A stretch of DNA of 64,000 nucleotides from Catellatospora sp. KI3 (lineage in GTDB: Bacteria > Actinomycetota > Actinomycetes > Mycobacteriales > Micromonosporaceae): contig NZ_JASAMB010000029.1 in the NCBI RefSeq assembly GCF_029948125.1, positions 1 to 64,000 on the forward strand, read 5' to 3'. The position numbers were made by a program, and so were the translations under genes. This document shows, one piece after another, positions 1,887 to 61,178 of the stretch. The first letter of the stretch is position 1, and each line of letters starts with the position of its first letter. Below the pieces are notes generated by a model that saw only the letters and a list, made by a program, of their open reading frames with translations, was not told where the DNA came from and ran no database searches.

Positions 1887-1964
1887 GGTTACCCGCAGCG
1901 TGTTCGGTGCTAGCCTGTCCGACACAAGCACCGCATGTACAGCGGGTACACAGTTTTCAAACGA

Positions 1965-2045
<81 letters not shown>

Positions 2046-2125
2046 TTCGGTCAACACCTCACCGCCACGCCGGTCCGCCCGCCATACTCGTAATCGGGGC
2101 ATAGCGGACGTACGGCGTGCGCCTT

Positions 2126-57447: not shown

Positions 57448-59931
57448 TCAGCCCCTGACCCGCAGCGCCCGCGCCAGGTCGTCGGTGCCGTCGGCCAGCG
57501 CCCGGCGCAGCAGCGGGTGCATCTGCCCGGCCAGTGCCCGCTCGGCGGCGGCCAGCGTGTCGGCCGACACCGCGTACCCCGGGTAGGCGGCCGTGCCGAG
57601 GTGGGCCAGCATGTCGCCGGAGCGGCCGGTGGTCGCGGGCAGCTCGGCGAAGAAGCGGGCCACGTACGGCTCGGTCAGCTCGGCGTGCTCGGGCTGCCAC
57701 AGCCCCTGCCCGGCCGCGACGCAGATCCGGTTGGACAGCCCCTGCTCGGTGACGACCAGGTCGAACGCCCACGCCTTGGCCTGCGGGTCGGGCCGGGACG
57801 CGCGGGCGCGCACCGCCTCCTGCTCACCGCGGGCGCTGGTGTCGCGGGCCAGCTCGGCGTCGATCTCCGCCTCGGACACGTCGCCGAGCACCGACAGCCG
57901 GTTCAGCACCGACCAGCGCAGCTCGCTGTCCACGGCCAGCCCCTCGGGCACCCCGGTGCCGCCGAGCCAGCCGCGCAGCAGGTCGCGCTCGCCGGGGCCG
58001 GCCAGCGCGGTCAGCGACCGGGCGCCGACCAGCTGCCGGCTGCCGCCCGGCTCGGCGGTCTCCAGCAGCGTGCGCGCCGCCGCGGCCAGCGCCGCCCGGC
58101 CCTGCTCGCGCTGCGCGCCGGGCAGGTAGGTGTTGACCGCCAGGCGGGCCAGCGCGAACACCGACTCGGCCAGGGTCACGTCCGGCTCGCCGGGCAGCAC
58201 CCGCGCGGCCAGCTCCACGAACTCCAGCGCGGGCCACTCGGCGTCGCGGGTGGCGTCCCAGGCGCTGTTCCACAGCAGGGCGCGGGTCAGCGAGTCCGGC
58301 TGCGCGGCGAGCAGGTCGGCCAGCTCGGCCCGGGTCCGGTCGTCGAGGCGGACCTTGGCGAAGGTGAGGTCGCCGTCGTTGAGCAGCAGACCCTTTCCGC
58401 GTACGCCGGACAGCAGCGGCACCGGCGTCCGCTCCCCCGCCACCTCGATCTCGGTGCGCTGCCACTGCCCCTGCTCGTCGAACCAGCCCAGGCCGATGCG
58501 GTGCGGGCGCAGCACCGGGAACTCCGGCGCCGCGGTCTGCACCACCGCGACCGACTCGTACGACCCGTCGGCCGCCCAGGTGATCTCCGGCCGCAGCGTG
58601 TTCACCTGCGGGGTGCGCAGCCAGTCGCCCGCCCACGCCTGCAGGTCCCGGCCGCTGGCCTGCGACAGCGCGTCGAGCAGGTCGGCCAGGGTGGCGTTGC
58701 CCCACGCGTGCTTGTCGAAGTACGACCGCAGCCCCGACAGGAACGCCTCGTCGCCGATCCACGCCACCAGCTGCCGCAGCGCCGAGCAGCCCTTGGCGTA
58801 GGAGATGCCGTCGAAGTTGGCGAACGCCGCGTCGGTGTCGACGACCTCGGTCGGCGCGATCGGGTGCGTGGAGGGGCGCTGGTCGGCGGCGTACCCCCAG
58901 GCCTTGCGGCCGACGCCGAAGCGGGTCCACGACTGCGGCCAGGGGGTCACCTCGGCCACCAGCCGGTAGCCCATGTACGTCGCGAACGACTCGTTCAGCC
59001 ACAGGTCGTCCCACCAGCGCATGGTGACCAGGTCGCCGAACCACATGTGCGCCATCTCGTGCGCGATGATCGCGGCCCGCTCCAGCCGCTCGGTGTCGGT
59101 GACCGCCGCGCGGAACAGCAGCTCGTCGCGGAACACCACCAGGCCGGGGAACTCCATCGCGCCCCAGCTGAACTCGGGCACGAACGCCTGGTCGTACTTG
59201 CCGAACGGGTAGCGCACGCCGAACAGCTCGTGGTAGCGGTCCAGGAACGCCTTGGTCAGCATGAAGATCTCGGGGGCGTCGCGGTGCAGCACCTCGGCGT
59301 AGCTGGCCCGCGCCACGATCGCCATGCCGATGCCGTCGTGGACGTCGTCCACCTGCACGTACGGCCCGGCCACCAGCGTGATCAGGTACGTGGCGACCGG
59401 CTTGGTCTCGGCGAACTCCCACCGTCCCGGCGCCGCCTGGGTGCCCTCGGCGTTGGCGCGCACCAGCCAGGACGGGTCGGCGGTGACCGACAGCGTCACC
59501 GGCGCCTTCAGGTCCGGCTGGTCGAAGCAGGCCATGAACCGGGGTGCGTCAGTGATCGAGGGCTGCGCGTACGTGTAGACCAGGCCGTCGGCCGGGTCCA
59601 CGAAGCGGTGCATGCCCTCGCTGGTACGGGTGTAGGCGTAGTCGGCGGTCACCTCGACGGTGTTGCTCGCGGCGAGGGAGTCCAGTGCCAGCCGACCGTC
59701 GGCGAAGGCCGACTCGGGCAGCGGCACGCCGTTGAGCGTCGCCGACAGCAGGCGCTCCGGCCGCGCCTCCAGGAAGACGGTGGAGCCGGGGGTGGCATCG
59801 AAGCGGACGGTGGTCACGCTGCGGAAGGTCTCCTCACCGGTAGTGAGGTCGACGTCGAGCCCGTACGACAGCTGCCGCACGGTAGCGGCGCGTGAGACGG
59901 CTTCGGCATGGGTGAGGCTGCGCTGCGTCAT
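57448..59931 (-). CDS. pepN: Aminopeptidase N (M1 family)
   Basis: An 827-residue zinc aminopeptidase. The exopeptidase motif WGAMEFPG (near residue 255) and the zinc motif HEMAH (near 290) with the downstream WLNESFATYMG Glu are intact. An ERAP1-like C-terminal domain completes it. It is divergent from the trpS leader. Confidence 0.95.
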   Translation of the reverse strand: MTQRSLTHAEAVSRAATVRQLSYGLDVDLTTGEETFRSVTTVRFDATPGSTVFLEARPERLLSATLNGVPLPESAFADGRLALDSLAASNTVEVTADYAYTRTSEGMHRFVDPADGLVYTYAQPSITDAPRFMACFDQPDLKAPVTLSVTADPSWLVRANAEGTQAAPGRWEFAETKPVATYLITLVAGPYVQVDDVHDGIGMAIVARASYAEVLHRDAPEIFMLTKAFLDRYHELFGVRYPFGKYDQAFVPEFSWGAMEFPGLVVFRDELLFRAAVTDTERLERAAIIAHEMAHMWFGDLVTMRWWDDLWLNESFATYMGYRLVAEVTPWPQSWTRFGVGRKAWGYAADQRPSTHPIAPTEVVDTDAAFANFDGISYAKGCSALRQLVAWIGDEAFLSGLRSYFDKHAWGNATLADLLDALSQASGRDLQAWAGDWLRTPQVNTLRPEITWAADGSYESVAVVQTAAPEFPVLRPHRIGLGWFDEQGQWQRTEIEVAGERTPVPLLSGVRGKGLLLNDGDLTFAKVRLDDRTRAELADLLAAQPDSLTRALLWNSAWDATRDAEWPALEFVELAARVLPGEPDVTLAESVFALARLAVNTYLPGAQREQGRAALAAAARTLLETAEPGGSRQLVGARSLTALAGPGERDLLRGWLGGTGVPEGLAVDSELRWSVLNRLSVLGDVSEAEIDAELARDTSARGEQEAVRARASRPDPQAKAWAFDLVVTEQGLSNRICVAAGQGLWQPEHAELTEPYVARFFAELPATTGRSGDMLAHLGTAAYPGYAVSADTLAAAERALAGQMHPLLRRALADGTDDLARALRVRG

Positions 59932-59973
59932 GCGAACATCCTGCCTGATCGAGGACCTGCGCAGGTATGCCGG

Positions 59974-60003
59974 TTGCCGCCGGGCGCCCGCCGGTGCCAC
60001 AAT
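59974..60003 (+). promoter_or_regulatory. Promoter of the trpS leader
   Basis: TTGCCG (59974-59979), an 18-bp spacer and CACAAT (59998-60003). The -10-like box ends 6 nt before the leader ATG at 60010, so the transcript may begin at the start codon itself. Confidence 0.5.
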
Positions 60004-60009
60004 CGGCGC

Positions 60010-60045
60010 ATGCGGATGACGACCAACCTGTGGTGGCTGCCCTAG
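60010..60045 (+). CDS. trpS leader peptide MRMTTNLWWLP
   Basis: An 11-residue open frame with two adjacent Trp codons (60031-60036) and a stop at 60043. It lies 117 nt before trpS and precedes paired alternative hairpins. A ribosome stalled on the Trp codons would leave 60049-60055 free; a ribosome reaching the stop would cover it. This is the layout of a ribosome-mediated attenuator. Auxiliary, indolmycin-resistant TrpRS genes of Streptomyces are known to be controlled in this way. Confidence 0.85.
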   Translation: MRMTTNLWWLP

Positions 60046-60048
60046 ACC

Positions 60049-60100
60049 GGCGGCCCGCATCCGTATGACCTCACCAGGCCGCCTGACCGGGCGGCCTTTC
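60049..60100 (+). promoter_or_regulatory. Transcription attenuator before trpS
   Basis: Antiterminator: GGCGGCC (60049-60055) pairs with GGCCGCC (60077-60083). Terminator: AGGCCGCC (60076-60083), a 6-nt loop, GGCGGCCT (60090-60097) then TTCTCG. The two structures share 60077-60083 and cannot coexist. The T-run is short, as often in high-GC genomes. Confidence 0.8.
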
Positions 60101-60161
60101 TCGTGCACGGGCCCCGTGCAGCCTCCCGGAGCGGCGACCGCGACCCGACGGGAGACCCACC

Positions 60162-61178
60162 ATGACCCTCACCGCACTCCGGCCCACCACCACCCGCATC
60201 CGCCGCCTGACCGGCTGCAAACCCACCGGCCATCTGCATCTGGGCACCCTGCTCGGCATGATCCGGCCGATGCTCGCCGCCCAGCACGACACCGACTCGA
60301 TCATGATGATCGCCGATCTGCACGCGCTCACCGTCGAGCACGACCCCGCCCGCCTGCGCGCGTACGTCGCCGAGCAGGCCCGGGTGCTGCTCGCCGCCGG
60401 CATCGACCCCGACCGCACCATCCTGTACGTCCAGTCCGACCTCCCCGAGCACACCGGCCTGCACTACCTCCTGGAGTGCGCCACCGGCTACGGCGAGGCG
60501 CAGCGGATGACCCAGTTCAAGGAGAAGGGCGCCGGGGCCGCCGGAGTCCGGCTCAGCCTGCTCACGTACCCGGTGCTGATGGCCGCCGACATCCTGCTGC
60601 ACGACACCGACGCCGTCCCGGTCGGCGACGACCAGACCCAGCACCTGGAGCTGGCCCGCACCATCGCGACCCGATTCAACGCCCGCTACGGCGAGGTCTT
60701 CACGGTGCCGGTCGGGCAGCGCCCCGGCGTCGCGGCACGCGTGATGGACCTGACCGACCCGACCGCCAAGATGGGCAAGACCAACGACTCCGCCCTGGGC
60801 ACGATCGGGCTGCTCGACCCGCCGGACCTGGTCCGCCGCAAGGTCATGCGCGCCGTCACCGACACCCTCGCCGTCGTCCGCCACGACCGCGAGGCGCAGC
60901 CCGGCGTGACGAACCTGCTGGAGATCTACGAGGCGTGCACCGGCGAGACGACCGAGTTCCCGTCATACGGCGCGCTCAAGGCGGGGGTGGTCGACGCGGT
61001 GGTGGCCCGGCTGGAGCCGATCCAGCGGGCGTACGCGGCACTGTCGCCGCACGATGTGGACCTGGTCCTGGCCGACGGGGCCGAACGGGCTCACCCGCGG
61101 GCTGCCGCGACACTGCGGCGAGCCGGCGAGGCGATCGGTCTTCGCGGAACCGTCAGGACCGAACGATCTTCTTCGTGA
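60162..61178 (+). CDS. trpS: Tryptophanyl-tRNA synthetase
   Basis: A 338-residue class-I synthetase. GHLHLG (residues 23-28, HIGH signature), Trp-site YGEAQRMTQFKEK and GDDQTQHLELARTIA are present. The KMSKS loop reads KMGKT at 203-207. The N-terminal CKPTGHLHLG and the leader attenuator fit the auxiliary actinobacterial TrpRS type rather than the general one; whether a second trpS exists cannot be seen here. The ATG at 60162 follows GGAG. Confidence 0.93.
   Translation: MTLTALRPTTTRIRRLTGCKPTGHLHLGTLLGMIRPMLAAQHDTDSIMMIADLHALTVEHDPARLRAYVAEQARVLLAAGIDPDRTILYVQSDLPEHTGLHYLLECATGYGEAQRMTQFKEKGAGAAGVRLSLLTYPVLMAADILLHDTDAVPVGDDQTQHLELARTIATRFNARYGEVFTVPVGQRPGVAARVMDLTDPTAKMGKTNDSALGTIGLLDPPDLVRRKVMRAVTDTLAVVRHDREAQPGVTNLLEIYEACTGETTEFPSYGALKAGVVDAVVARLEPIQRAYAALSPHDVDLVLADGAERAHPRAAATLRRAGEAIGLRGTVRTERSSS

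Follow-up and report, generated by a model that had tools for sequence, protein, structure and literature searches.

Attenuation by the ribosome of an auxiliary, antibiotic-resistant tryptophanyl-tRNA synthetase (TrpRS) gene was reportedly described by Vecchione and Sello in 2010, the gene being trpRS1 of Streptomyces coelicolor. Related candidates in Actinobacteria include an attenuator before trpS2 of S. avermitilis and predicted attenuators before trp operons (PMC1262725), those of a 2015 report on Trp attenuators (cited in PMC4833913), and leaderless leader peptides reported before trpE and trpS in S. lividans (PMC8079986). An attenuated auxiliary trpS is, in this regard, of a kind already known from Streptomyces. 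Within the excerpts of open-licence papers covered by our search, we found neither a family-wide case nor a P0-like, start-codon helix in a Trp attenuator.

Here we describe a trpS locus lying in a 64,000-nt stretch of DNA (the window), part of an 8.2-Mb genome of the family Micromonosporaceae. From comparative analysis, it is probable (roughly 0.85) that this auxiliary TrpRS gene has a leaderless message and is controlled by ribosome-mediated attenuation of transcription.

Architecture of the locus and its promoter

The elements preceding trpS are listed in Table 1, and comprise a Trp-codon ORF upstream of the gene, together with a mutually exclusive antiterminator and terminator that have one strand in common, which is the anatomy of a trp-type attenuator. 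The preliminary description of this DNA had already reported the 11-codon frame with adjacent Trp codons, the antiterminator and a competing terminator, and all three were recovered: strand 2 is perfectly complementary to strand 3, and the terminator extends to nine pairs, with none of 200 shuffled sequences as stable. Two helices, P0 and P1, are additional to these elements, and in the minimum-energy fold of the free RNA P0 encloses P1 (z -3.15; 1 of 200 shuffles equally stable). On the opposite strand, the pepN reading frame is open up to 60108, beyond the end of its family match.

Table 1. Features around the attenuator of the auxiliary trpS gene (window coordinates).
Feature	Position	Strand	Description	Basis
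pepN	upstream of attenuator	-	TIGR02412 spans almost all of 815 aa scanned; family match stops near 59895	
-35-like box	59974-59979	+	TTGCCG; 18-nt spacer to -10 box	sequence
-10-like box	59998-60003	+	CACAAT; ends 6 nt 5' of leader ATG 60010; predicted transcription start 60010	sequence and relatives
Leader ORF	60010-60045	+	MRMTTNLWWLP, 11 codons, stop TAG; tandem Trp codons 60031-60036	
P0, 5' strand	60010-60018	+	pairs with 60058-60066; start codon included	fold, swap test, covariation
P0, 3' strand	60058-60066	+	pairs with 60010-60018; inside antiterminator loop	fold, swap test, covariation
Strand 1	60035-60041	+	P1 (anti-antiterminator) with strand 2; overlaps second Trp, Leu and Pro codons	fold
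Strand 2	60049-60055	+	GGCGGCC; common to P1 and antiterminator P2	
Strand 3	60077-60083	+	GGCCGCC; common to antiterminator P2 and terminator P3	
Terminator hairpin P3	60076-60084:60089-60097	+	9 pairs, -18.1 kcal/mol; tail TTCTCG	
Shine-Dalgarno-like motif of trpS	60150-60154	+	GGGAG	sequence
trpS	60162-61178	+	auxiliary tryptophan--tRNA ligase, 338 aa, KMGKT loop; TIGR00233 279.3 bits, cut-off 176.75	

In an Rfam scan of the whole window no family matched at the attenuator, and the sole match at gathering score was a TPP riboswitch elsewhere (1956-2062, plus strand, 64.6 bits). A known Rfam element at 59900-60200 was rejected, only RNAI appearing there at E up to 10 (13.4 bits vs 47). Directly 3' of the terminator lies a second inverted repeat (GTGCACGGGCCCCGTGCA, 60103-60120), which alone is no stabler than shuffles; GTGCAC...GTGC-like repeats are found at the same side of the terminator in several relatives of the genus (e.g., L083, L084, L085).

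For comparison, 300 genomes of the family were searched, and a TrpRS match at E up to 1e-85 was obtained in 111 of them, from 28 of 44 genera, while the remaining 189 held none at that threshold. All 111 loci examined have a Trp leader, with tandem Trp codons in 92 and a single Trp codon in 19, so the attenuator is beyond chance. The 111th locus (leader MTRVASTKWWAA, with a WWAA end) was added later, and most leader counts given below refer to the 91 tandem-Trp loci out of the first 110. Outside the family, all 29 auxiliary loci read (L192-L220) carry a Trp-containing candidate leader, 27 of them with WW.

The trpS message is likely leaderless, with a predicted 5' end at the A of the leader ATG (60010). 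Our criterion was a -10 box located 5-7 nt upstream of the start codon together with the lack of a Shine-Dalgarno motif, the spacing rule being that of S. lividans transcripts, in which -10 box and start site lie 6.3 nt apart on average (PMC8079986). An nANNNT box ending 6-7 nt before the start was present at 36 of 36 loci with a single possible start codon (TANNNT in 35), which is the unbiased figure, because starts at multi-start loci were picked partly by the box; before the chosen start it was found at 90 of the 91 tandem-Trp loci (TANNNT in 77). Among control starts, the box preceded 88 of 2076 inside trpS (~4%; TANNNT in 1) and 9 of 433 in the 150 nt upstream. Moreover, an SD-like 5-mer occurs before 1 of 91 leaders vs around the aligned trpS start in 72 of 91. 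Leaderless transcription is likely because the box stands at 6-7 nt in 90 of 91 loci and an SD-like motif in only one, and the leaderless geometry suspected for the window in the preliminary description was consequently borne out. A simple promoter scan listed no promoter at the leader region.

Helix P0 and the proposed order of events

In the mechanism that we propose, RNA polymerase would start at the A of the leader ATG, and if no ribosome had been loaded by about 57 nt of RNA, the 5' end would fold back, P0 burying the start codon. P0 and P1 would then hold strand 2, leaving strand 3 free for the terminator, and trpS would be off; for these two steps the fold is computed and the kinetics are what we infer. 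A loaded ribosome would keep P0 open. With ample Trp-tRNA, it would reach the stop codon and cover strand 2, leading to the terminator, whereas scarce charged Trp-tRNA, from tryptophan starvation or an inhibited main TrpRS, would stall it at the Trp codons, where it would cover strand 1 and most of the P0 5' strand and leave strand 2 exposed. Free strand 2 could then pair with strand 3 into the antiterminator before strand 4, the last strand of the terminator, is made, and trpS would be transcribed.

P0 was assessed by swapping linkers among loci. The score for pairing of the leader 5' end with the linker was 17.2 in 90 family loci vs 14.9 after swapping (0 of 500 swaps reached the observed value) and 10.8 after shuffling; in 29 loci of other actinomycetes it was 18.1 vs 13.7 (0 of 500) and 11.1, respectively. 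The test omitted L125 of the 91 family loci (short linker) and, of 32 class loci, L211 (short linker) and two that the script did not detect, L201 and L206.

Covariation was evaluated with a covariance model, R1, built from 23 loci (alignment A3, chosen for one sequence dialect), which recognises 95 of 96 loci in sense orientation. On the model-fitted alignment A5, consisting of 100 chosen loci, all with E up to 3e-6 and 20 of them in the model itself (98 distinct rows), P0 covariation was 0.158 vs 0.090 in shuffles (0 of 500 reached it) and at most 0.072 when the helix was slid. In this alignment 82.8% of P0 cells are paired and six of nine pairs show changes on both sides, with pairs 1, 8 and 9 failing in 43, 33 and 37 of the 98 distinct rows, respectively; A5 omits L125-L127, L152, L174-L176, L188, L190 and L191 of the 110 loci (weak, cut or odd), and also L225. 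Since A5 was fitted to the structure, the swap test is the cleaner evidence. In A3 alone, before fitting, the signal was weaker, with covariation of 0.080 vs 0.066 (10 of 500 shuffles reached it) and pairs changed on both sides were 3 vs 2.1 in shuffles (164 of 500); swap tests and pair counts alike are not counts of independent events. The MAFFT alignment A1 (55 loci), in which by eye the P0 strand lay two columns off in one dialect, was unused for pair counts.

When loci were folded with the last terminator strand unmade, the P0/P1 fold beat the antiterminator at 70 of 80 loci, and at 36 of 80 when the first nine bases were kept single, with a median loss of 6.3 kcal/mol; 11 of the 91 loci, where the script found P2 of under five pairs, were left out. 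In the computation, P0 tips untranslated RNA toward termination, and it may also block ribosome loading.

The helix occupies another place in class genomes f21 and g70, presumed to be Streptomyces from leaders (e.g., VMTRTCTQLWWAA, L208) nearly equal to S. lividans trpL2. There it lies at about nt 9-18 of the leader, GCGTACGTG with CACGTATGC, at a similar distance before the Trp codons; burial of the AUG is not universal, since this P0 starts at nt 9 and not at the start codon.

Beyond the family, R1 matched 37 of 246 class genomes, the own genome included, where the attenuator site was found at E 3.8e-8 and the next match at E 2.96, for which reason the idea of further elements of this sort in the own genome was dropped. 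Among 29 new class loci, 16 precede an auxiliary trpS, as judged from their place, and the leaders of the other 13 resemble HQWWRR or MYATVLGxWWPAS. At 12 of these 13 non-trpS loci the next ORF resembles, by eye, anthranilate synthase (L245 is not among the 12, and the longest ORF of L233 is in the wrong frame); the product at L238 exceeds the cut-off of the anthranilate synthase model (739 vs 645), and that of L251 has the same model as best match, far below cut-off (129). MYATVLG.WWPAS-like leaders were seen at L237, L243, L245, L249, L251 and L253, before anthranilate-synthase-like genes, which could possibly be a second trpE class or a specialised-metabolism enzyme. When R1 was run against 78 other TrpRS loci (the own main copy, 13 class main copies and 64 others), E below 0.04 was obtained only for L018, L019, L021 and L051, which are loci with known Trp leaders.

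The best helix between leader and linker starts within the first three leader bases in 10 of 12 trpE-type loci, and none of 500 swaps gives a mean as high as that observed (e.g., ATGCGAAC with GTTCGCAT; ATGTACGTGC with GCGCGTACAT); of the 13 loci, L232 was missed by the script, the L237 start was set wrongly, and in L241 pairing begins at base 9. P0 is also seen, with a different sequence, in trpS attenuators of other actinomycetes and in attenuators of the trpE type. In this context, we tentatively propose, with odds slightly short of even, that leaderless Trp attenuators of trpS and trpE across Actinomycetes share a fourth helix, which brings the 5' part of the leader onto the antiterminator loop and acts as a loading gate. 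The ribosome would have to start before the helix closes, the RNA being otherwise locked into termination, and the device would read both Trp-tRNA charging and the loading of ribosomes at the bare 5' end.

A rather unlikely reading of the same helix is that P0 is chiefly part of a P0+P1 pause hairpin, which would synchronise RNA polymerase with ribosome loading, and not a start-codon lock. Consistent with it, 76 of 91 minimum-energy folds contain both P0 and P1, the AUG stays outside P0 in the presumed Streptomyces set, and a pausing role has been proposed for H1 of the leaderless ilvBNC attenuator of Corynebacterium glutamicum (PMC11857589); however, P0 of the Micromonosporaceae reaches over the start codon, which pausing would not need.

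Ribosome position, terminator and leader end

The spacing of the leader is in agreement with an attenuator that reads the ribosome position. Measured from the first nucleotide of the first Trp codon, the 5'-most strand 2 base paired with strand 3 is 15-18 nt downstream at 84 of 91 loci. Under a geometry model in which RNA is free from 14 nt past the start of the A-site codon, strand 4 is still unmade and an antiterminator counts from 6 pairs, placing the first Trp codon in the A site allows an antiterminator at 81 of 91 loci, the second at 80, and the stop codon at none; at 10 of 91 loci it has under 6 pairs with the first Trp codon in the A site. These values (81 vs 0 of 91) bear out by computation an earlier suggestion that a ribosome stalled at the Trp codons would expose strand 2, and one at the stop would mask it. 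In the window, with strand 4 absent, the antiterminator tolerates a ribosome edge as far as 60048, is weaker with the edge at 60050 and disappears from 60052 on. Once strand 4 is included, equilibrium folding of the window gives a stabler terminator at every ribosome edge tried, that of the stalled ribosome included, and the switch must therefore be kinetic. P2 showed no covariation, 500 of 500 shuffles being as high, which is expected if each base serves two helices, yet lends no support.

The P3 helix is paired in 99.5% of cells over the 98 distinct relative rows. It is followed by a weak U-tract, with a median of 3 T in 8 bases among the 91 relatives, and a simple terminator scan listed nothing at the P3 site. 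The weakness of this tract, together with the existence of actinobacterial leader peptides that have no obvious terminators (PMC1262725), would suit control at trpS translation or by Rho, with a hairpin that is no terminator; we regard this as improbable, against the near-complete pairing of P3 and its position, as in the window 52 nt separate its end from the trpS SD downstream, which it leaves uncovered.

Leader ends among the 91 tandem-Trp loci were WWLP (55), WWRP (14), WWAP (10), WWSP (5) and others (7). The 19 single-Trp leaders, with peptides read by eye, have WR (14), RW (3) or WQ (2) in place of WW, and were found at L094, L116, L117, L120, L123, L126, L127, L144, L152, L154-L156, L158, L163, L174-L176, L188 (cut by the contig end) and L190; the covariance model still matches 16 of them, with no match at L175, and L188 and L190 were outside the search. 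Of the 91 tandem-Trp leaders, 86 have Pro at the end, encoded by CCC in 84 of the 86, and four of the five other ends are NCC codons (GCC, TCC). The last leader codon is kept as CCC or NCC because these bases of strand 1 pair with strand 2, and RNA pairing largely dictates the peptide end, the RNA being conserved more than the residue. At L105 the leader frame runs through strand 2 (VRMSPIFLGWWRSDGRPPFSA, then stop), and a ribosome that finished translation there would stop beyond strand 2.

In TnaC-like systems the ribosome is stalled by the nascent peptide, and an arrest of that sort at the conserved WWxP-stop end, suggested by the terminal Pro, was dropped as very improbable, since the CCC bases, which pair with strand 2, are better conserved than the residue, and the presumed Streptomyces leaders end in WWAA (GCC GCC).

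The auxiliary TrpRS and comparison with known systems

A genome search for another trpS, recommended in the preliminary description, revealed a second, unattenuated copy in the same genome (G000:C1:745165-746178), whose product is 44% identical; in comparison, the TrpRS of a genus-mate (G133) is 92% identical to that of the window. A tree of 75 protein rows places all 52 auxiliary rows together at 100/97, and the 14 main copies (the own one and 13 of the class) at 100/100, so that, by sequence, the window TrpRS falls among attenuated auxiliary TrpRS and away from the main copies; the tree contains no sequence named as S. coelicolor.

In Bacillus TrpRS, the residues Gln9 and His43 are important for indolmycin. 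At the position of Gln9 the window protein carries K20, and it retains the His of DLHALT, which is kept in 111 of 111 family members. At the Gln9 place, the 12 commonest forms among the 111 members give minimum counts of 59 for K, 38 for Q and 10 for T, and the loop is KMGKT in 39, KMSKS in 35 and KMGKS in 28. Since K, Q and T all occur there among attenuated relatives, the indolmycin phenotype is unreadable from the motif. The preliminary description had tentatively assigned the protein to the class of Streptomyces auxiliary TrpRS, possibly indolmycin-insensitive, by its KMGKT loop and N-terminal motif; the grouping with attenuated auxiliaries stands in the tree, but the two motifs are variable among the 111 relatives and were dropped as markers, and the insensitivity drawn from them is not supported.

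In the family sample, attenuation accompanies the spare trpS without exception (111 of 111 orthologues examined, out of 300 genomes searched), and a covariance model is now available for an RNA that had no Rfam match here. Furthermore, the start-codon helix offers a testable point on the default state of messages that, being leaderless, lack a Shine-Dalgarno step. That this family should have inducible spare TrpRS genes is plausible ecologically, because an Actinoplanes produces chuangxinmycin, an inhibitor of TrpRS, the cluster for which was discovered via a potentially resistant trpRS gene (PMC12087186).

Among known systems, mycobacterial poly-Cys short ORFs (Canestrari 2020, via PMC9031893) are likewise leaderless, regulatory and read for one amino acid, but this is cysteine, and they are described as regulating translation of downstream genes. 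H1 of C. glutamicum ilvBNC reportedly protects the site where ribosomes land on the leaderless message and works as an anti-antiterminator, which makes it comparable to P0 by description; it differs in serving branched-chain amino acids and in being one hairpin (PMC11857589). Attenuators of trp operons in Streptomyces and Corynebacterium (PMC1262725) have, as here, a WW or WWW leader and a triple of complementary strands; our trpE-type matches also have P0, but another regulated gene and other P0 letters.

The auxiliary trpS of Streptomyces has, as here, a Trp leader, GGCGGCC/GGCCGCC strands and a second trpS, and proteins of the presumed Streptomyces genomes (f21, g70) group with ours. The leader ends mostly in WWLP, WWRP or WWAP here vs WWAA in presumed Streptomyces, and P0 lies over the start codon here vs farther inside the leader there. 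In S. lividans, trpL2 (MMTRTCTQLWRAA) is a leaderless leader before trpS, as established by transcript 5' ends there and predicted here; it has one Trp codon (WRAA), and no uridine-rich stretch was found downstream (PMC8079986). Its single-Trp form is paralleled in 19 of the 111 family loci, 14 of them with WR.
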